A DNA stretch of 64,000 nt from Cytophagaceae bacterium (GTDB lineage: Bacteria > Bacteroidota > Bacteroidia > Cytophagales > Flexibacteraceae). The notes under the pieces are model-generated. The model made no database searches, was not told the DNA's origin, and worked only from the letters and a program-made list of their open reading frames with translations. Below are positions 5,396 through 59,389 of the stretch, piece after piece. Both the position numbers and the translations under genes were made by a program. Position 1 is the first letter of the stretch. Each line of letters begins with the position of its first letter. The stretch is from NCBI GenBank assembly GCA_027490155.1, contig JAIXYP010000030.1, positions 1 through 64,000 on the forward strand, given 5' to 3'.

Positions 5396-6535
5396 CTACC
5401 ACTCCAACCCTACAACAGTTCCGCTCTCCGTACTCTGGAGGGCGGCGGCGAAGAGCTTGTGGCTTGCAACGGCCTCCGCAGGGGTGGCGCAGGTGAAACG
5501 GCCAGAGGAAGGTAGGCCATTTTTGACCAAGTGCCGCTCCTCGAAGTAGCCGGCCAGCATTTGCATAAAGCAGTCTGGGAATCCCACCTCGAAGATCCCG
5601 CCCGTGATGGTAGGGTAAGGGGTAGCAAAACCGAGGTCGGTCTTCTGCCAGTATTGCTCCTTCTCACGTTTATAGACATAAAGCGTCTTAGGCTCCTTGG
5701 TCGAGAACCGCACACCACCCTCTGTACCGAGCACCTCTAGGAACCAAGTATTGGTCTCGGTTGGGGCCATGCGTTTGGTCTCGAGGGTCATAGGCACACT
5801 GCGTCCATCGATCGTGACGGCGGTGTGTAAAACGGCATTGTCCCACGTGTCGCAAGCAGCCATGCCACCTTTGCCATCAGGGCGTTCGGTATAGATTTTC
5901 TGGAGCTGGGCATAGACCGTATCAGGGTACCAACCTAGGCGGAATGGTACGTGAGCAGCATGCATCCCAAGGTCTCCCATTACGCCGATCTGGCCGCAGA
6001 ATTTAACCTGACGTTTCCAGTTGATGGCTTTGGTAGGGTCTAGGTCACTGCTGTGGTGGAAACCAGATTTGATCTCGAGCAGGGTGCCTAGTTTGCCTGA
6101 CTTAATCTCCTGGATCACCCGCTGAACGCCTGGGAGGAACGGAAACTCAGAGCTACAACGGACGAATTGGCCAGATGCCTCGGCTGCTGTATAGATAGCG
6201 TTGGCAGCATCAGCATCGATCCCGAAAGGTTTCTCAGCCAATAGATCCTTGCCAGCGGCCAGCACATCTAGGTAGATTTGCTGGTGCAGGTTATGCGGCA
6301 CTGCCACATAGACCACCTCGACATCAGAGGCCAAAAGGGCATGGTAGTCAGTGGTTAGTAGCTCGATGGTTGAGACACGTTTGTACCACTTCAGAACGTC
6401 TTCACTAAGGTCAGCCACAGCAGTTAGCACTGGCTGGGCTGGGCTATCGTTGAGGACAAACCAACGGGCGAAAGCACTAGCGGCCTCCTTGCCCATCAGT
6501 CCACCACCGATGATGCCTACTTTTACTTGTTTCAT
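5396..6535 (-). CDS. Gfo/Idh/MocA-family NAD(P)-dependent oxidoreductase
   Basis: 379 residues, the usual length for the family. The N-terminal Rossmann fold begins KVGIIGGGLMG (glycine-rich dinucleotide loop, residues 6-15), and EKP at 101-103 supplies the conserved lysine (K102) that binds cofactor and substrate. The C-terminal half is the beta-sheet substrate domain, with GDLGMHAAHVPF as the catalytic-helix region. Family members oxidise or reduce hydroxyls of sugars and cyclitols. There is no signal peptide, so it is cytoplasmic. It lies 57 bases downstream of an aldolase gene on the same strand, so the two probably form an operon for catabolism of a sugar or sugar acid. The substrate cannot be read from sequence. 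Confidence 0.92.
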   Translation of the reverse strand: MKQVKVGIIGGGLMGKEAASAFARWFVLNDSPAQPVLTAVADLSEDVLKWYKRVSTIELLTTDYHALLASDVEVVYVAVPHNLHQQIYLDVLAAGKDLLAEKPFGIDADAANAIYTAAEASGQFVRCSSEFPFLPGVQRVIQEIKSGKLGTLLEIKSGFHHSSDLDPTKAINWKRQVKFCGQIGVMGDLGMHAAHVPFRLGWYPDTVYAQLQKIYTERPDGKGGMAACDTWDNAVLHTAVTIDGRSVPMTLETKRMAPTETNTWFLEVLGTEGGVRFSTKEPKTLYVYKREKEQYWQKTDLGFATPYPTITGGIFEVGFPDCFMQMLAGYFEERHLVKNGLPSSGRFTCATPAEAVASHKLFAAALQSTESGTVVGLEW

Positions 6536-6592
6536 TTCGGAGAATGTTTGGGATATGATAACGACAGTCCAGAAGACTGCTATATCGCTTGA

Positions 6593-7423
6593 TTATTTGA
6601 CCAGACCAATAACGTCAGCCACGGTAGCACCCTCATGGACGACGGCCATCAAGGCACGGGTCATAGCACCTGGCTTCGGATGCTGAATGATGTTACGACC
6701 GTAAACGATGCCTTTGACACCCTGTTGGATAAGGTTATAGGTACGGGTCAGGATCTCCTCATCCGTCGCACGGCCACCGCCGCGTACGAGTACAGGAATA
6801 TCGCCAGCGGTCTCGACCACTTTGTGATAGACGCTAACATCATCCGTAGGGTCAGATTTGATGATGTCGGCACCGAGCTCGACAGCTTGGCGCACCAATG
6901 GAATGATTTTCTTTTCATCACCATCCACCATGTAGCCACCGGCTTTGGCATTCTCTTGGAAAACCAATGGCTCGATCATCAACGGCATGCTGAACTGATC
7001 ACAGATCGGCTTGATGGACAAGATGTTCTGGATACACTGGTCAGCAACCTCTGGTTGGTTCGGGATCTGGAATAGGTTGACGACCACACAGGTGGCATCA
7101 AGCCTAATAGCCTGGGTAACAGGCTCGCTAATCATGCGGCTAAAAAGGGTGCGTGGCAGCAGAGTGCCATAGACGTTTGCCACATCCGTGCGGAGGACAA
7201 GACTAGGCTTATGACGACCTGGGAGATTCTGGAGGTAGTGGGCCTGACCAACTGTGAGCTGAATGGCATCAGGTGCTGCCTCTACCAAAGTGGTTATGGC
7301 GGTTTTGATGTGCTCGATACCTTGTAGGAAGGCATACTCGTTAAAAAATCCGTGGTCGATTGCCACGTCGAAACAGCGGCCAGACTGCTGGTTGAACAAG
7401 CGCTGTAGGCGGAAGTTCTTCAT
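6593..7423 (-). CDS. Class I aldolase, DeoC/FbaB/LsrF-like
   Basis: 276 residues in a TIM-barrel aldolase frame. FDVAIDHGF near residue 20 matches the AxDHG strand of FbaB- and LsrF-type enzymes. LGADIIKSDPTDD near residue 190 carries the probable Schiff-base lysine, and VLVRGGGRATDEE plus GVKGIVYGRNI form the phosphate-binding glycine loops at the barrel's C-terminal end. These enzymes make or break a C-C bond in phosphorylated ketoses. The gene is first in a two-gene minus-strand unit with the Gfo/Idh/MocA oxidoreductase, so the product of one may be the substrate of the other. Transfer activity like that of LsrF is possible; the exact substrate is unknown. Confidence 0.85.
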   Translation of the reverse strand: MKNFRLQRLFNQQSGRCFDVAIDHGFFNEYAFLQGIEHIKTAITTLVEAAPDAIQLTVGQAHYLQNLPGRHKPSLVLRTDVANVYGTLLPRTLFSRMISEPVTQAIRLDATCVVVNLFQIPNQPEVADQCIQNILSIKPICDQFSMPLMIEPLVFQENAKAGGYMVDGDEKKIIPLVRQAVELGADIIKSDPTDDVSVYHKVVETAGDIPVLVRGGGRATDEEILTRTYNLIQQGVKGIVYGRNIIQHPKPGAMTRALMAVVHEGATVADVIGLVK

Positions 7424-51286: not shown

Positions 51287-51318
51287 CAAAAATACATTCT
51301 TGGCGCTAGGCCACCAAA
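51287..51318 (-). promoter_or_regulatory. Promoter of the large T9SS protein gene
   Basis: On the minus strand TTTG (51318-51315), a 20-base spacer, then TATTTTTG (51294-51287): both consensus elements. It overlaps the 3' end of the upstream cyclase gene (stop at 51306) and shows that the downstream gene is a separate unit. Confidence 0.72.
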
Positions 51319-52517
51319 TCATTTATGGCCTGGGTCATGATTTGATCATCCAACTCATGCACCTCTATCGGCTGCCCGATCCCACGTAACATCAAGAGGG
51401 TAAGTCGGCCACCTAGGTGCTCGCGGAACTCATTTAGACCAGCAAGCAAAGGGTGGATTGATTGATAGGTGGTTTGGCTAATGCCGTAAGGTCCAAGTGC
51501 TAGGTCATATCCCATCCTGACCAATAGACTTTTGACTCGTGCATAGTCATTCGCAAGTAGCCAACCCATCTGCTGGCTATAAAGTGCATCAAGGTGTAGA
51601 CCAGCCGCAACTGCCAACCCATGCGCAATCCCGAAATTGGTTAGCCCTTCAGCCTTATGTGCTGACCAATGGCCAAAGTCAAGCGGGCGTGAGCTGCCTT
51701 GCTCAAAAGGGTCACCCCCTTGGCAAATGTGGCGCAGGTGCAGCAAAGCCGACTGGTGGATAATCTGCTGTAATTTATCAAGGTCCCCCTCGATGGCATC
51801 GACAGCATCACGCTCGAGCTGTTCAAAAAAGTCCCCATCCTTGACCAAGGCCACTTTTACAGCCTCGGCCAACCCTGCCCTGATGAGATCAGGGTTAAGA
51901 GTTGCCAAAAACGCGGCATCGTTTATCACTGCCAGCGGAACAGCAAAGGCACCCAAAAAATTCTTTTTACCAAAAGCATTGATGGCCGACTTGACCCCTA
52001 CCCCACTATCTGCCTGAGCTAATACGGTGGTTGGCACACGTAGCAGCTGCACCCCTCGGTGGGCGATAGCACAAGCAAAGCCTACCATATCCAGAAAAGC
52101 GCCTCCACCTACGGCGACGACCACACTATGCCGATCGATACCAGAGTCATTGATGGCCTGGCAAACAGCCATCACTCCAGCCCAGTTGTCCTTGCAGGAT
52201 TCAGTCCCTTGCAGCCACATCGGCTCTTTGGCCAAGGTGTAGCTATGCTTCTCTAGTGATGCTTTGTGGATGAGAGATGCCGGCAAGTGATCATAACCAT
52301 ACTGGGCTAGATCCGCCTCTAGGATGTATAGGAGCTTAGTTTCTGGCTTGGCAATAGTGCCAAGTGCAACTACTAGGGTGGGATTATCAGCTAACCAAAA
52401 GGCATTTGTCGATAGCAGCTGATGACGATAGGTCTGGACAAACTGCTCTCGAATGATGGCCGTTGATAGGCTGTCATCAGGAGGTGGCAAAAGGCTATAA
52501 TCGGAAGTAATAGGCAT
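51306..52517 (-). CDS. Sugar-phosphate cyclase, 3-dehydroquinate synthase superfamily, EboD-like
   Basis: Start chosen at the ATG at 52517 (403 residues); 52553 is also in frame. The NAD-binding VVVAVGGGAFLDMVGFACAIAHRGV, RVPTTVLAQADSGVGVKSAINAFGKKNFLGAF, GLAEAVKVALVKD and SRPLDFGHWSAHKAEGLTNFGIAHG match the sugar-phosphate cyclase superfamily and include the Glu and His residues that bind the metal. The AFGKKNFLG stretch, the DFGHWSAHK variant and the 40-50 extra N-terminal residues fit EboD-type proteins of the ebo cluster better than housekeeping AroB, which is about 350 residues. It would cyclise a sugar phosphate. It is the last gene of a five-gene minus-strand run with GtrA, the GT-C/kinase fusion, the aldolase and TMEM220. 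Confidence 0.85.
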   Translation of the reverse strand: MPITSDYSLLPPPDDSLSTAIIREQFVQTYRHQLLSTNAFWLADNPTLVVALGTIAKPETKLLYILEADLAQYGYDHLPASLIHKASLEKHSYTLAKEPMWLQGTESCKDNWAGVMAVCQAINDSGIDRHSVVVAVGGGAFLDMVGFACAIAHRGVQLLRVPTTVLAQADSGVGVKSAINAFGKKNFLGAFAVPLAVINDAAFLATLNPDLIRAGLAEAVKVALVKDGDFFEQLERDAVDAIEGDLDKLQQIIHQSALLHLRHICQGGDPFEQGSSRPLDFGHWSAHKAEGLTNFGIAHGLAVAAGLHLDALYSQQMGWLLANDYARVKSLLVRMGYDLALGPYGISQTTYQSIHPLLAGLNEFREHLGGRLTLLMLRGIGQPIEVHELDDQIMTQAINDLVA

Positions 52518-52607
52518 TAATGCTAAAGCAGTGGTAGGACTGGCCAAACACAAAAATAAGGCCCAATTGCGGCCTTATCTCAATTTGCTGACCTCCTATT
52601 GTGCAGA

Positions 52608-53108: not shown

Positions 53109-54197
53109 CTATTTGAGGAGGCTTTTACGGAAGCGCTCGCTTTCCATATTGTTAATATAGTCTAGGTCCTGCGGCTGCAAAAAACGGGGCTCCAATCCTA
53201 AAAAACGCAATTGGTGCCTGATGTAGAGGTAAGCCGTCAAGGTTTCGTCGATGGTGCGGGCCTCCCGATAGTTGGTTCGGTAGGTCACTAGGCCCGTCTG
53301 CTGATCAACCATGATTTTGTTCGGCTTGGCGGCATCGAACGAAAAGTTGCCGTTAAAAAACACCGTCTGGTCCGGGAACAAGACATTGGATTCGAAGTAG
53401 GCCGCATCCACACCATCAGTTTGCTTGAAGAAATCTGACACGAATTCGGAACCACAATGCCAAACCTCAGAATGATCGGTAGGCACTAGTTCAGCAATAG
53501 GATATTGGCTTGGCAAAAGCTCATAATAGGTACAGAGGGCCGAGTTGATATCACGATGCAAGGCGATAACCTCGTCCACCGTATTGGCCGAGACGATGAT
53601 GCCATGGTTTTGCAGAAAAAAAACCTTAGGCTCTGGGCCACCATTTGCCTTGGCTGCCTCCAGTTGTTGTTGGATGGCAGTCGTAAGCCAAAAGCCTGGG
53701 TTGAGATAGGGTACCAGGACAGCCTCCCAACCCGACGCATGACAAAATGCCAACAAGGCTTGATGTGCATCTGCTTGGCAATTGATCAGGTTGGCATAGA
53801 CCGAATGGGTATGAATAACATAACGACCTAGAATGCTATGAAATCCAGTTTCCATGCTTGGGCGTGCCGCTGGCCACTCGTCCAAGGTGATGGTATGCTG
53901 CCTGACTAATGCCCCACTTACCGCCTCATAGTCAGTCGATTCTGATAAGGCTCCGTGATCGATGGAGTGGAAAAACGCAACAACAGGAGGACTCTCAACA
54001 AAGGCATAGCCCGAATTAGTATCGAGCTGCCGAAGCTCGAACCCAGATGCCTTTATTGCCATCAGACCGTCAAAAGCCTTGGCTGAGGTATTGCCCCCTG
54101 CACCTTGCACAAAGTCGGGCCGGTCGGCCACTGCACGGGATATGGCCAATAGCTCGCGCACTGTTTTGTGATAGAGATTGCTGTCGTATTGCTTCAT
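53109..54197 (-). CDS. Class II aldolase/adducin-family protein
   Basis: 362 residues, larger than simple fuculose-phosphate aldolase (about 215). FVQGAGGNTSAKAFDGLMAIKASG is the phosphate-binding region of class II aldolases. VIHTHSVYANLINC carries two zinc-binding His residues, and FLQNHGIIVSANT a third conserved His. The C-terminal 100 residues are extra. Enzymes of this fold cleave or form aldol bonds, or isomerise, in phosphorylated sugars using zinc. The gene lies 61 bases after the GT-C/kinase fusion gene, in the same direction, and so probably acts on the phosphorylated product of that kinase (inference). The substrate is unknown. Confidence 0.87.
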   Translation of the reverse strand: MKQYDSNLYHKTVRELLAISRAVADRPDFVQGAGGNTSAKAFDGLMAIKASGFELRQLDTNSGYAFVESPPVVAFFHSIDHGALSESTDYEAVSGALVRQHTITLDEWPAARPSMETGFHSILGRYVIHTHSVYANLINCQADAHQALLAFCHASGWEAVLVPYLNPGFWLTTAIQQQLEAAKANGGPEPKVFFLQNHGIIVSANTVDEVIALHRDINSALCTYYELLPSQYPIAELVPTDHSEVWHCGSEFVSDFFKQTDGVDAAYFESNVLFPDQTVFFNGNFSFDAAKPNKIMVDQQTGLVTYRTNYREARTIDETLTAYLYIRHQLRFLGLEPRFLQPQDLDYINNMESERFRKSLLK

Positions 54198-54258: not shown

Positions 54259-56454
54259 CTAGTCGATCGTCAGTTTATTGAATACATAATAGGCCAAAAG
54301 GAGTTGAATCAGACCATTGTAACCATCGGCCATTTTAGGTTCGGTTACGGCCACCTCTTCGAGCTCAGGCACCAGCTGCTGGATGAGATCAAACAGCTTG
54401 GAAGCTGAAATAATACCGTCAAACACGACTTGCTGGTGGTCTTCGTCCATAAAACGATGGCTGACCTCTAGGCCCTCAACTAGCGTCAAGGCATCAAGCA
54501 GACGATCGAGGTTAATGTTATTATCTAAAGTACAACGTAGGATCAAGGCCAGTGATAGGTCTGGTGCACCTAACTGGCTGATAGCAACCTTGGGCTCATA
54601 ACCAATGATGATGTCAGCATACTTGGCCTGGACGTCGATGTACTTGGTGGCGTCGGCCTCTCGGGCATTGAGCTGAGCGACGATCTGGTCAATGGTGTAG
54701 CCACGGTCACGGACATCCCGAATGATCTTCCAGTGGTAGCGTAGGTCACGGTCTGGGTTAATGAAGACCTTGCAGTCATACAGCCGTCTTGTCTGACTAA
54801 GGTAGAACGGATGAAGCCCCTCAAAGACCACTACCCTATTGGACCTCACTGCAACTGGCAAAGTGAATTTGCCATCTTGATGGTCGTAATGTCGTCGGTC
54901 GATGCTGCGGCCCTCCTTGAGCTTGAGGGCATGGGTCAGGTCGTCATGCAGGAGGTTGGCTTTGGGGTCTAGGTGGGTAAAAGTCCGCCATTGTTCATGT
55001 CCACGCTCCCAGCGGTGCATATCATCCCCACGGATAACAGCCACATTACGATCCAGAAACAGGTCAGCCATAAGGCGGGTAAAGGTACTTTTGCCGGACC
55101 CGCTATCACCACCGACGCCCATCAGGAAGGGTTTGTAGCGGATCTTGTGTTTGATAGTGGCATCAATACCATATTGATAGATCAGCCCACAATTGATGGC
55201 CAAGGTGGTCTGGAGCAAGGTGAATACCAGACTCAGGAAGTGGCTATCGTTTAGGCCTGCTTTTACCAAGGTTTGGCTCAGGTTTGGCAAAGCGGCCCAG
55301 CTAGGCTGCACAACCCTGAAGACCTGAAAAAAGTCCGAGGCTGGCACCAAGGCAAAGTAGGCGAAGAACAAAGCCGTCAGCGCATAAAAGGCCCAAGTGG
55401 CACGCTGGCCGATATCCTGCTTGAGCAAAAAGTAAATCAAGAAGGGTAGCACCCAAAAATACCAACCTTGCATCGGTGGGATTAGCACGATCAGGATGCC
55501 GAACGCAAACCCCAAAAACATAATGTATAGGTCACGGTTGAACATCCGGAAGGCAAGACTCCGGACCACCACGAGGTAGTAAGCAGCAGGCAGTGCAAAG
55601 ACAGCCAAGCCGAGGCCGTAGTCTAGCCGTAGGTTGAAGACCTTGCCCTGCTCGCGGTTCATGAATACCATCTGCCAAAAACCTGTAGAACTAAGGAACG
55701 GTAGGTTAGGCAACACAAAAGCCAAAGCAATAACCCCTATGTGCGCTAACAGACCACTGATTTTGACTTGTTTCGTTGTCAGGTACCAGAGGTAGAACGG
55801 CACAGCAACCACCATGTTGGTTTTCGTTGCAAGGCATAGGCCCAACACCAAACTAGCCATCCAGAGCTTGTCCTTGAACTGATAATAAAGACTAAGAAAC
55901 AACAAAGTGACTGGGATAATATCCAGCTGCCCATGGATGTAGCTGATGTAAAGCAATACGGGCGAAAGCCAGAACAGCACCAGCAATTTGGTCTCCTGCC
56001 GTCTAATCCAGCTATTAAGGATGATCAGCAACAGTAGGTCTGCCACGATGAGTGGCAGGCGCATCACCAAAAGGTCCAGCCAACCCACTGCCGCACCATC
56101 CTGGAACAAAAAGCCGAGTAGCATCCGTGGCAGAGCCAAGATATACAGCATCAGAGCCGGATAAGGGAACATCTCAGGTCGCCCAGCCTCCATCCAATGT
56201 TGGTAGGGGTCTGCCAAACCACTGCTGACGAATTGGTTAACAAACGGGATAAATAACTCGGCGTAGAACGAGGAGGCCAATGTCGCGCCCATCAACAGCT
56301 TCAAGCCTAGTCCTAACCAGAATAACCAAGACCGAAAACCCTCCCGAAAATTAATTTGGAGGATGATTCTGGTCCAGAAACTGGTGGATTGTGGCATAGT
56401 AAGGTAGCAATCAGCAGACAAAGGGCAAGATTCAATCAGTTTGGACTTAGGCAT
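54259..56454 (-). CDS. GT-C-like membrane domain fused to a uridine kinase/phosphoribulokinase-type kinase
   Basis: 731 residues in one open frame. Residues about 35-420 have roughly ten membrane segments; the first external loop has LADPYQHWMEAGRPEMFPYPALMLYIL, the acidic layout of lipid-linked-sugar mannosyltransferases of the GT-C fold. Near residue 440 a soluble kinase begins: GVGGDSGSGKSTF is Walker A, VIRGDDMHRWERG and RRHYDHQDGKFT hold conserved acidic and basic residues of the uridine kinase/PRK family, and VVVFEGLHPFYL is the Walker B-like strand. RDVRDRGYTIDQI and QAKYADIIIGYEP are the C-terminal PRK signatures. It starts 16 bases after gtrA, so the two are cotranscribed. The kinase would make a sugar- or nucleoside-phosphate in the cytoplasm next to the transferase. 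M20 (56397) is an alternative start. Confidence 0.9.
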   Translation of the reverse strand: MPKSKLIESCPLSADCYLTMPQSTSFWTRIILQINFREGFRSWLFWLGLGLKLLMGATLASSFYAELFIPFVNQFVSSGLADPYQHWMEAGRPEMFPYPALMLYILALPRMLLGFLFQDGAAVGWLDLLVMRLPLIVADLLLLIILNSWIRRQETKLLVLFWLSPVLLYISYIHGQLDIIPVTLLFLSLYYQFKDKLWMASLVLGLCLATKTNMVVAVPFYLWYLTTKQVKISGLLAHIGVIALAFVLPNLPFLSSTGFWQMVFMNREQGKVFNLRLDYGLGLAVFALPAAYYLVVVRSLAFRMFNRDLYIMFLGFAFGILIVLIPPMQGWYFWVLPFLIYFLLKQDIGQRATWAFYALTALFFAYFALVPASDFFQVFRVVQPSWAALPNLSQTLVKAGLNDSHFLSLVFTLLQTTLAINCGLIYQYGIDATIKHKIRYKPFLMGVGGDSGSGKSTFTRLMADLFLDRNVAVIRGDDMHRWERGHEQWRTFTHLDPKANLLHDDLTHALKLKEGRSIDRRHYDHQDGKFTLPVAVRSNRVVVFEGLHPFYLSQTRRLYDCKVFINPDRDLRYHWKIIRDVRDRGYTIDQIVAQLNAREADATKYIDVQAKYADIIIGYEPKVAISQLGAPDLSLALILRCTLDNNINLDRLLDALTLVEGLEVSHRFMDEDHQQVVFDGIISASKLFDLIQQLVPELEEVAVTEPKMADGYNGLIQLLLAYYVFNKLTID

Positions 56455-56470: not shown

Positions 56471-56887
56471 TTAGGTCCTGAAAACGACAAACTTTGTCAA
56501 CACAAAATTGAGGATCGTCGTTAGGATGGTGGCCAAGAGCAGGGCAACAACTTTCTGGAGGTCTGTGCTGGGACTAACCAGCTCAATGAGGCCAAAGCTG
56601 ATGGCAAAACTAATAGCATAAACCAATAAATAGGGCAACAATACGGTGCTATGCTTAGCATCACCAGCCTCAAATGTGATGGACTTGTTGAGCCAATAAC
56701 CCAAAATGACACCTGACACATAGCCTATCCCGCTGGCAACAGAGGACCTTAATCCTAGGCCCCAAACCAAAACAGCCGCCAAGCCTAGGTTCATGACGGT
56801 GCTTAACCCACCCACAAACAGGAACCCTATCAGCTGCGGGTTGATACCAGTTTTTGATAATACCGACTTTAACCGTCTGGAGATCAT
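56471..56887 (-). CDS. GtrA-family membrane protein
   Basis: 138 residues from the ATG at 56887; the open frame reaches 56950. Four membrane segments: LIGFLFVGGLSTVMNLGLAAVLVWG, SSVASGIGYVSGVILGYWLNKSITF (with the GtrA signature Y-x-L-N-K-x-x-T-F), PYLLVYAISFAISFGLIELV and VVALLLATILTTILNFVLTKFVVF. GtrA proteins are thought to flip or escort polyprenyl-phosphate-linked sugars, mainly Und-P-glucose, across the inner membrane, where GT-C transferases use them. The gene heads the five-gene cluster on this strand. The promoter candidate at 56891-56920 favours the shorter start. Confidence 0.85.
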   Translation of the reverse strand: MISRRLKSVLSKTGINPQLIGFLFVGGLSTVMNLGLAAVLVWGLGLRSSVASGIGYVSGVILGYWLNKSITFEAGDAKHSTVLLPYLLVYAISFAISFGLIELVSPSTDLQKVVALLLATILTTILNFVLTKFVVFRT

Positions 56888-56890
56888 ACC

Positions 56891-56920
56891 CAAAGGTAAT
56901 ATGGATTGGTGGTTAGCAAT
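56891..56920 (-). promoter_or_regulatory. Promoter candidate of the gtrA cluster
   Basis: On the minus strand ATTG (56920-56917), an 18-base spacer, and TACCTTTG (56898-56891), an exact -7 match. It lies only three bases upstream of the ATG at 56887, which would make the transcript nearly leaderless. The alternative is that the match is by chance and translation starts at 56950. Confidence 0.38.
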
Positions 56921-56975
56921 GGAAGACGGACAACCTAAGAGTTGGCGCAAACACCGACAATGTAGGCGTCAATAA

Positions 56976-57138: not shown

Positions 57139-57918
57139 ATGGACTTACAACTCAAAGGTAAAGTAGCCATAGTGACTGGTGGCACCAGCGGCATCGGCGA
57201 AGCCATTGCCAAAACCCTTGCCCACGAAGGTGTACACCTGGCCCTCATCGGTCGGGACCAAACCCGTGGCGACCAAATGGTCGAAACACTGACTGCGATG
57301 GGTGTAAAGGCGCTTTTCGTCCAGGCGGAGCTCAGCGAAGAGGCCAACTGCAAAGTTGCCGTTGACAAAGTCCTCGCAACCTTTGGCCAGATCGACATTT
57401 TGGTCAATAATGCAGGTGTCAACGACGGCGCTAGCCTCGACAAGCCTGTATCTGACTTCGTTGCCTCCTTGCATAAAAACTTGGTGCACTACTTCGCGAT
57501 GGTCCACTATGCCAAAGCGGCGCTTATCGCCAGCAAAGGTGTCGTGATTAACATTGGGTCTAAGGTTGCAGACACTGGCCAAGGTGGCACAAGTGGCTAT
57601 GCGGCCAGCAAAGGTGGCATACATGCCCTAACCCGCGAGTGGGCAGCAGCCTTCCGTAATGATGGTGTGCGTGTTAACGAAGTTGTACCAGCCGAAACCT
57701 GGACACCGCTGTACGAATGGTGGCTCAACACCCTGCCAAACCCGGCTGAGAAAAAAGCTGAGATCGAAAGCAAAATCCCATTTGGTGCCCGCTTCACGAC
57801 CAGTGAAGAGATCGCAGACATGGTAGTGTTCTTGGTTTCGCCACGTTCGTCCCATACTACTGGCCAAATCATCTTTGTGGATGGTGGCTATACCCACCTT
57901 GACCGTTCGTTGACCTAG
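57139..57918 (+). CDS. SDR-family NAD(P)-dependent oxidoreductase
   Basis: 259 residues, a classical SDR. VAIVTGGTSGIGEAIA is the cofactor loop TGxxxGxG, DILVNNAGVNDG the NNAG motif, INIGSKV the catalytic Ser strand, SGYAASKGGIHALTREWA the YxxxK pair, and VNEVVPAETWTPLY the post-catalytic region. Absence of an Asp at the end of strand 2 (LIGRDQTRG) would fit NADP or NAD. The last part IIFVDGGYTHLDR is conserved in L-fucose dehydrogenase-like SDRs, so a free sugar is a plausible substrate. It diverges from the gtrA cluster and shares its operator-like sites. Confidence 0.9.
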   Translation: MDLQLKGKVAIVTGGTSGIGEAIAKTLAHEGVHLALIGRDQTRGDQMVETLTAMGVKALFVQAELSEEANCKVAVDKVLATFGQIDILVNNAGVNDGASLDKPVSDFVASLHKNLVHYFAMVHYAKAALIASKGVVINIGSKVADTGQGGTSGYAASKGGIHALTREWAAAFRNDGVRVNEVVPAETWTPLYEWWLNTLPNPAEKKAEIESKIPFGARFTTSEEIADMVVFLVSPRSSHTTGQIIFVDGGYTHLDRSLT

Positions 57919-58359: not shown

Positions 58360-58474
58360 ATCACATTGATTCTGAGGGCAAGATAGGAAAATCCGAAATA
58401 TCGATATTAAAAACTGCTTAACTTTCAGCTAGCAGGCTTGTTATCATTTACAAAAAGTGCCGACTACAGACCCC

Positions 58475-59389
58475 ATGCTAATGCACGAAACTCGCCCAAC
58501 ATCAGTCCTCCAAAATTGGAAAAATGCGCTCCTGCTGATGCGAATCCCATTTTCGATCTATCTGATGCCGATCTTTTGGTTGGCAGCAAGCCAGAATATT
58601 CTCTTTGGATGGGAGCGAGGCGTCTTGACGTTTTTAATCCTTCACCTGCTAGTCTATCCTGGCAGCAATGGCTACAACTCCTATCACGATCGGGATACGG
58701 CACCTGTTGGCGGGTTGGCCAGCCCACCAGCCGTGAACCAGCAACTCTGGTACCTCATTATCTTGACTGACGTATTGGCTCTTGGCCTCAGCTACCTACT
58801 CGGTTGGCTTTTCCTGAGCTGGGTTTTGGCCTATATCTTGGCAAGCAAAGCCTATTCTTGGCCTAGCATTCGACTGAAGGGGGACCCCTACCTTGGCACT
58901 GCAATTGTGGTCCTGATGCAAGGGGCGGGCACCTACTACATGGTCTTGGCTGGTCTTGGTGTTTGCAGCTGCGAGTATGGCAATCTCTACCACATCGGCT
59001 ATGCAGTCGGGGCTAGCCTAACCCTACTAGGAAACTACCCACTGACCCAAGTATATCAACATGAGTCTGACGCCGAACATGGTGACCAAACGCTAAGCCG
59101 TCTGCTGGGGGTGATCGGAACCTTCTGGTGGGCCTTGGCATTCACCATCGTGGGTGGTGGGCTGATTGCTTTGTTACTCTATCTGGACTTCGGCTGGAAA
59201 GGTCCGGTCCTGCTTATGGCCCTCCAGTTACCCGCTAACCTCCATCAGCAGCGGTGGTTTGCGGCTGTCCGAAAGGACTTGAAGGCAGCCAATCACCAGA
59301 ATGCCATGCGGCTGAATCAGCTGGCCTCATTGGGCTTTTCGGCTGCGCTAGTCATCTTAGTCTTTGCAGAACGGTGGCAACTTTGGTAG
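58475..59389 (+). CDS. UbiA-family prenyltransferase
   Basis: Start chosen at the ATG at 58475 (304 residues); the frame opens with GTG at 58457, and 58481 is also possible. Nine membrane segments. The first polyprenyl-diphosphate site is YPGSNGYNSYHDRDTAPVGGL (N..DxxD), the second is YQHESDAEHGDQTLSRLLG (DxxxGD). UbiA enzymes attach prenyl chains to aromatic or polar acceptors in the membrane. The NSYHDRD...GGL variant is shared by a Bacteroidota subgroup whose acceptor is not known to me. EboD-type cyclases are linked to a UbiA protein (EboC) in ebo clusters, and a cyclase of that type is encoded 6 kb away, but the other ebo genes are missing here. Confidence 0.92.
   Translation: MLMHETRPTSVLQNWKNALLLMRIPFSIYLMPIFWLAASQNILFGWERGVLTFLILHLLVYPGSNGYNSYHDRDTAPVGGLASPPAVNQQLWYLIILTDVLALGLSYLLGWLFLSWVLAYILASKAYSWPSIRLKGDPYLGTAIVVLMQGAGTYYMVLAGLGVCSCEYGNLYHIGYAVGASLTLLGNYPLTQVYQHESDAEHGDQTLSRLLGVIGTFWWALAFTIVGGGLIALLLYLDFGWKGPVLLMALQLPANLHQQRWFAAVRKDLKAANHQNAMRLNQLASLGFSAALVILVFAERWQLW

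Follow-up and report, generated by a model that had tools for sequence, protein, structure and literature searches.

A phosphoribulokinase-type kinase fused to a GT-C-fold membrane domain and linked to glycan-type genes in Bacteroidota, Alphaproteobacteria and an E. coli plasmid

Phosphoribulokinase (PRK) is seen as a signature enzyme of the Calvin cycle. GT-C enzymes of the fold discussed below work at the outer or luminal face of membranes, with polyprenyl-phosphate sugars as donors, and GtrA/GtrB/Gtr proteins form three-part glycosylation systems. In the available excerpt of PMC5241800, residues R59, Y98 and H100 of the M. hungatei PRK hold the phosphate of ribulose-5-phosphate (Ru5P), H55 and K151 hold Ru5P, and R154 holds ATP. 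The GPI mannosyltransferase I is described, in the excerpt of PMC12653191 used here, as having an essential DxD motif in loop 1, which is replaced by SSW in PIG-U. Finally, haloarchaea possess a non-carboxylating pentose bisphosphate pathway for nucleoside breakdown, in which ribulose-1,5-bisphosphate (RuBP) is made by ribose-1,5-bisphosphate isomerase; the product of a RuBP phosphatase, ribulose-1-phosphate (Ru1P), is then cleaved by a FucA-type aldolase into dihydroxyacetone phosphate (DHAP) and glycolaldehyde (PMC9700705, excerpt).

The window, a 64,000-nucleotide stretch of a Cytophagaceae bacterium genome, harbors a gene in which a GT-C-fold membrane half precedes a kinase of the PRK type (Table 1). 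As the earlier note had reported, membrane residues and kinase share one intact frame of 731 codons, devoid of stops. The protein is also encoded in a single open frame in the same-genus genome G001 (95% identity) and in G003 and G027 (43% and 45%), so the fusion is not an assembly artefact, and a reading as two genes or a frameshift is ruled out. Between the window gene and its same-genus copy, the membrane half has a dN/dS of 0.049 and the kinase one of 0.027; the membrane half is thus under strong purifying selection. Residues 1-37 are not conserved (dN/dS 0.93, based on nine changes), and translation may therefore begin closer to the second ATG (residue 20); the N-terminus is also of low confidence in the AlphaFold2 model. 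This model, built from a 23-row alignment (mean pLDDT 82.7, pTM 0.75), supports a GT-C-fold half followed by a whole PRK half.

Table 1. Features of the fusion locus, in window coordinates
Feature	Position	Strand
Fusion gene, 731 aa: GT-C-fold membrane half and C-terminal phosphoribulokinase (predicted)	54259..56454	-
Membrane half (residues 38-438), predicted GT-C fold nearest GPI mannosyltransferase I	55141..56343	-
Complete PRK domain (residues 436-731, predicted), with P-loop and C-terminal parts	54262..55149	-
Walker A GDSGSGKST (residues 449-457)	55084..55110	-
Acceptor motif DDMHRWER (residues 477-484)	55003..55026	-
GtrA-family membrane protein, directly upstream of the fusion	56471..56950	-
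Class II aldolase, ketose-1-phosphate type (predicted)	53109..54197	-

The kinase had been described as a PRK or uridine kinase; the first assignment stood and the second did not. By sequence and predicted fold it is a complete phosphoribulokinase. Pfam PF00485 (PRK) covers residues 445-625 (E 1.1e-40, 140 bits against a cut-off of 22). The top NCBIfam family is the phosphoribulokinase PRK07429, with 199 bits, below its cut-off of 236, against 82 bits for the uridine kinase family, also under its curated cut-off. The 50 best Foldseek rows for the full model are all phosphoribulokinases and uridine kinases. Over the whole domain, the kinase half resembles the cyanobacteria-specific PRK 9qkp (Z 27.1, rmsd 3.0, 284 aligned, 31% identity) and the M. 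hungatei PRK 5b3f (Z 25.8), sharing with them the fold, the P-loop and the named Ru5P residues. In a maximum-likelihood tree of 37 rows, 24 fused kinases group together (support 85/97) beside six PRKs (98/88), while seven uridine kinases stand apart at 100/100; the rows of locus L103 and of 5b3f are long in this tree, and one join among the PRKs is flagged as doubtful. The M. hungatei residues R59, Y98, H100, H55, K151 and R154, as named in the excerpt cited above, align with R484, Y523, H525, H480, K576 and R579 of the fusion, and all six are kept in 28/28 fusions. Four of them (H480, R484, H525, and K576) are missing from the seven uridine kinases compared; together with the NCBIfam scores and the tree placement, they rule out a uridine kinase identity.

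Unlike 9qkp and 5b3f, the fused kinase follows a GT-C membrane domain, has glycan genes as neighbors, and belongs to a genome giving no RuBisCO match. Within its acceptor motif, D477, H480, W482, and R484 occur in all 28 fusions. Furthermore, W482, W489, and H494, located in the acceptor segment, are invariant in the fusions (28/28) and were not found in the six PRKs compared; they hint at a modified acceptor, and something other than plain Ru5P may be the substrate. E545, which we take to be the Walker-B-type acid, is present in the window protein and in 24/28 fusions, and is replaced by Ser in the divergent L103 and L109-L111. D478 is lost in L103 and L110. The most divergent Bacteroidia fusion, L103 (8923-10962; 31% identity to the L041 seed), hence lacks both D478 and E545, and its kinase may be inactive or altered in substrate.

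The GT-C-like polytopic domain proposed for the N-terminal half is borne out by fold and, weakly, by sequence. It resembles GT87 in Pfam (E 0.0078, 16.4 bits, under the cut-off of 25); the L031 relative passes the GT87 cut-off (26.8 bits) and displays a sub-threshold PIG-U match (23.1 bits against 24.5), and L103 passes that of ALG3. The nearest fold is 9wno, the GPI mannosyltransferase I with Dol-P-Man (Z 28.4, rmsd 3.8, 352 aligned, 13% identity), followed by ALG3 (Z 26.6), ALG6 (Z 24.8) and PIG-U (7w72, Z 23.4), all of these rows coming from re-alignment of Foldseek matches, outside Foldseek's own 50 best. Likewise, the sole match of the membrane-half profile among PDB sequences is the GPI mannosyltransferase 1, at a weak E of 0.026. 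The membrane half thus has its fold in common with the catalytic subunit of this enzyme (Gpi14/PIG-M) and with ALG3/ALG6, but it is joined to a kinase, and no conserved loop-1 DxD was found in the fusions aligned. The latter trait is shared with PIG-U, which differs in being a subunit of the eukaryotic GPI transamidase. The best candidate for a loop-1 acid, position 66 (E66), is acidic in 20/28 fusions. Its placing against DxD is a gapless estimate, and the membrane half may be a transferase using another catalytic acid; D139, D178, and K211 are found in 28/28 fusions. A simple charge count, rather than a dedicated predictor, gives a positive-inside pattern across the family, with the N-terminus and the kinase predicted to be cytoplasmic and loop 1 to be outside.

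The fusion is rare but widespread. The database search suggested by the earlier note brought the number of fusion loci to 32, from Bacteroidota, Alphaproteobacteria and an E. coli plasmid. This count comprises 27 loci, to which L103, L104, and L109-L111 were added; L001-L021, L046-L048, L051, and L052 were left out as duplicates, ordinary uridine kinases or controls. In two of the 32, a contig edge cuts through the fusion gene, at the end of L037 and at the start of L045; L029 and L034 are apparently near-duplicates. The genome-contig search gave 24 loci, of which two are labelled as Alphaproteobacteria MAGs and one, L022, is apparently the G001 locus. Near-full-length matches occur in 4 of 39 relatives (the window genome included where sampled), most other matches among these 39 being short, uridine-kinase-like, and 20-30% identical. 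Sampling across the phylum yielded the fusion in 3 of 395 genomes, the window genome included, in line with its having been called unusual, and 4 of 299 genomes from the family of G166 carry it. On plasmids, 3 of 72,556 records possess long matches, covering 73-89% of the query, and two further records match the kinase alone. No phage match was found at E 1e-10 among 50,697 records. Of 5,426 E. coli genomes, 2 carry a cassette identical to that of the E. coli plasmid, in both cases on plasmids.

Split versions, for which a search had also been proposed, did not turn up among the strong matches of the membrane-half profile in 395 class genomes: all four are fused, their open frames spanning 680-735 codons. 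Weaker matches (E 7.5e-16 and above) fall in open frames of 285-508 codons. The phylum sample contained one strong match to the kinase alone, in G075, where a standalone phosphoribulokinase-like gene of 325 aa (L053, 8524-9501) is surrounded, according to an ORF reading, by genes resembling those of the Calvin cycle (transketolase, aldolase, bisphosphatase, and epimerase).

The gene neighborhood is of a glycan type. In the window, GtrA and the aldolase flank the fusion, the GtrA gene ending 16 bases before the first ATG of the latter; in G003 (L049), a GtrA domain is itself fused in front of the GT-C/PRK protein. On the E. coli IncR plasmid p5-S1-CAM-01-A, eight genes stand in a row: nucleotidyltransferase, GtrA, family-2 transferase, GDPD-type protein, the fusion, HAD, aldolase, and a further protein. 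The fusion is annotated there as uridine kinase. Assigned by BLAST to seed proteins, in fetched stretches that vary in length and on some contigs that end early, a class II aldolase is present in 23/27 and 28/32 fusion loci (L024, L032, L037, and L038 being without), a HAD phosphatase in 18/27 and 23/32, and a GDPD-type protein in 19/27 and 23/32. Counted over the 27 loci, a nucleotidyltransferase occurs in 19, a separate GtrA in 9, and a family-2 transferase in 18, the last figure taking in some possibly unrelated transferases. The window genome carries the whole gene set, at three places: beside the fusion, on contig C59 (two sugar nucleotidyltransferases and a family-2 transferase together) and on contig C25 (GDPD-like phosphodiesterase and HAD together). 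The PF00535 search was too general, but it led to the second gene cluster. Compared with GtrA/GtrB/Gtr systems, the set has in common GtrA, a family-2 transferase, and a GT-C-fold protein; it adds the kinase, HAD, aldolase, nucleotidyltransferases, and GDPD-like protein, and GtrA is not found in every locus.

The GDPD-like protein co-occurs with the fusion. Its profile is strong (E 2.4e-85 or better) in exactly the three fusion-bearing genomes of 395; two other genomes, at 8.3e-23 and 1.1e-21, have it in other gene clusters, with different HAD and nucleotidyltransferases. Among the 72,556 plasmid records, the GDPD-like protein of the E. coli cassette reaches an identity of at least 66% only on the three plasmids that carry the fusion, one of them its own; 15 other records match it at 34% or less. 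These co-occurrence events are not independent, given that G166 and G268 belong to one genus; moreover, the window genome itself is part of both samples. Searches of PDB sequences with the GDPD-like protein returned nothing useful. Distant GDPD-like, HAD, and nucleotidyltransferase genes were also observed in polysaccharide-looking clusters at L101 (8849-12040) and L102 (9389-11395), the fetched stretches of which do not contain the fusion; this set is perhaps a wider module.

Some further genes were observed around the fusions. L029, L030, L035, and L040 carry a methyltransferase gene, presumably TylF-like, where other loci have GtrA (about 5811-6625). In the window, an L-fucose dehydrogenase gene (NF052481, 378.7 bits; 57139-57918) diverges from the GtrA-fusion-aldolase genes, and a similar ORF is present in the same-genus locus L022. 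The window also holds a PRK06203-type dehydroquinate-synthase-like gene (51306-52553, 448.6 bits) and a UbiA-like gene (58457-59389), which we take to resemble eboD and eboC, respectively.

The linked HAD has ribulose-1,5-bisphosphate 5-phosphatase as its top NCBIfam family in four members, at 184.9, 168.2, 181.8, and 190.2 bits, against 112.2, 97.3, 117.1, and 91.2 bits for the next family. The window genome's protein, with 184.9 bits for NF053830, is below the cut-off of 330, yet this is its top family by 73 bits, and the next HAD of the genome reaches 58.5 bits with the same model against 184. The model matches 14/14 members of the HAD alignment, as do eight other HAD models; its best E is 3.7e-59, against 2.8e-39 for the next model. 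Each of the 14 control genomes also yields a match with this model, always below the cut-off. The aldolase is class II (FucA/RhaD-type), as judged from its predicted fold and kept residues. E116, H129, H131, and H198, presumably the metal and catalytic residues, are invariant in 12/12, and residues about 7-228 of the model (pLDDT 91.5) adopt the fold of sugar-1-phosphate aldolases (3m4r, Z 22.1; FucA 2opi, Z 18.0), the last ~130 residues being barely covered by this comparison. The fold is also near that of 6btd from B. thuringiensis, titled deoxyribose-phosphate aldolase (Z 17.1, 26% identity). By sequence, the aldolase is nearest to the aldolase part of bifunctional RhaD-type enzymes (13/13). 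Weak matches were obtained with MtnB in 13/13 and with the Ru1P-aldolase model in 5/13 (best E 3.6e-5), and the window aldolase scores 15.5 bits with NF053831, far under the cut-off of 300. The window genome gave no PF00016 match to RuBisCO, which the control search detected in 5/14 known genomes; a Calvin cycle in the window genome is thereby ruled out. A RuBP-phosphatase-like HAD and a class II aldolase are both in common with the haloarchaeal pathway (excerpt of PMC9700705); in contrast to the isomerase route given there, RuBP would come here from the PRK-like kinase, beside glycan genes.

In the absence of a RuBisCO match in the genome, the simplest reading is a series of PRK, HAD, and aldolase. 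The cytoplasmic kinase would convert Ru5P, or a close relative, and ATP to RuBP; the linked HAD would remove the 5-phosphate to give Ru1P, and the linked aldolase would process the latter, most simply to DHAP and glycolaldehyde. Assembly and export of an activated, polyprenyl-linked unit would fall to the pair of nucleotidyltransferases, together with the GDPD-like enzyme, the family-2 glycosyltransferase, and GtrA. At the membrane, this lipid-linked unit would be bound by the GT-C-fold half, which would transfer it or merely dock it and would keep the kinase at the site of assembly. The analysis establishes the fusion, the predicted folds, the conserved residues, the gene linkage, and the lack of a RuBisCO match in the genome, whereas all substrates, the order of the steps, and the product are inferences. 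We consider the odds even that the protein is a phosphoribulokinase tethered to the membrane and working in a dedicated pathway of surface-glycan synthesis. The more specific proposal, a RuBisCO-free use of RuBP for surface glycans in which PRK, RuBP 5-phosphatase, and ketose-1-phosphate aldolase form a dedicated precursor branch, compact and partly borne on plasmids in Bacteroidota and Proteobacteria, is put forward tentatively. Several points count against the main reading. Cleavage to DHAP and glycolaldehyde leaves the two nucleotidyltransferases with no obvious glycan precursor. The HAD scores are far below the RuBP-phosphatase cut-off, and eight other HAD models match the same 14 members; the aldolases match the Ru1P-aldolase model weakly, and in 5/13 only; and the aldolase is missing from 4/32 stretches. 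In the kinase, E545 is Ser in 4/28 fusions, D478 is lost in 2/28, and the W482/W489/H494 set is absent from the PRKs compared.

The kinase might instead act on another pathway-specific sugar or polyol phosphate, such as a deoxy- or epimeric pentulose, with the HAD and aldolase that follow leading to a nucleotide-activated rare sugar. The same three invariant residues, placed beside a retained PRK phosphate site, speak for this possibility, as do the two linked nucleotidyltransferases and the nearness of the aldolase fold to 6btd. The presence in 28/28 fusions of the five Ru5P-binding residues named in the excerpt of PMC5241800 and the RuBP phosphatase as top HAD family argue against it, and on balance we find it rather unlikely. 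The earlier note had suggested that the kinase feeds the membrane transferase directly, that is, by phosphorylating a lipid-linked or soluble precursor for the GT-C active site of its own chain. Retention of the fusion across phyla, the long fused frames of all four strong membrane-half matches in the 395 class genomes, and the further fusion to GtrA in L049 would suit such a coupling. However, the kinase is predicted to be cytoplasmic whereas GT-C chemistry is extracytoplasmic, and the candidate loop-1 acid is acidic in 20/28 fusions only. Direct feeding is thus the weakest part of that proposal and appears improbable; likelier partners of the kinase are the HAD phosphatase and the class II aldolase linked to it.

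As to the membrane half, it could be a non-catalytic relative of GT-C enzymes, like PIG-U, that docks the PRK or senses polyprenyl-linked sugars. PIG-U is among its top folds, L031 shows the sub-threshold PIG-U match, and the loop 1 of the fusions, without a conserved acid, recalls that of PIG-U, which is without the DxD of GPI mannosyltransferase I in the excerpt of PMC12653191. On the other hand, the top fold (9wno) is that of a catalytic enzyme, L031 and L103 exceed the Pfam cut-offs for the transferase families GT87 and ALG3, respectively, D139 and D178 are in place in 28/28 and could act, and purifying selection is strong; a purely non-catalytic role is therefore a doubtful reading. An ordinary Calvin-type PRK of central metabolism, anchored to the membrane by chance, would find a precedent in the standalone kinase of the Bacteroidota G075 among its Calvin-type-looking genes. 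With glycan-type neighbors and no RuBisCO match in the window genome, it is very improbable. The reading of a membrane-tethered PRK serving surface-glycan synthesis is the one retained here.

In the open-licence PMC papers searched, neither the fusion nor the gene set was found described, which does not prove its absence from print. In two phyla, and also on a plasmid of E. coli, a PRK-type kinase joined to a GT-C domain is linked to glycan genes. The labels "phosphoribulokinase" or "uridine kinase" on these fusions can mislead metabolic reconstruction. The proposed pathway makes a testable prediction, the conversion of Ru5P to RuBP and Ru1P within glycan synthesis, and the eight-gene plasmid unit is small enough for reconstitution. 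The gene set may mark an undescribed route to cell-surface sugars from ribulose phosphates.
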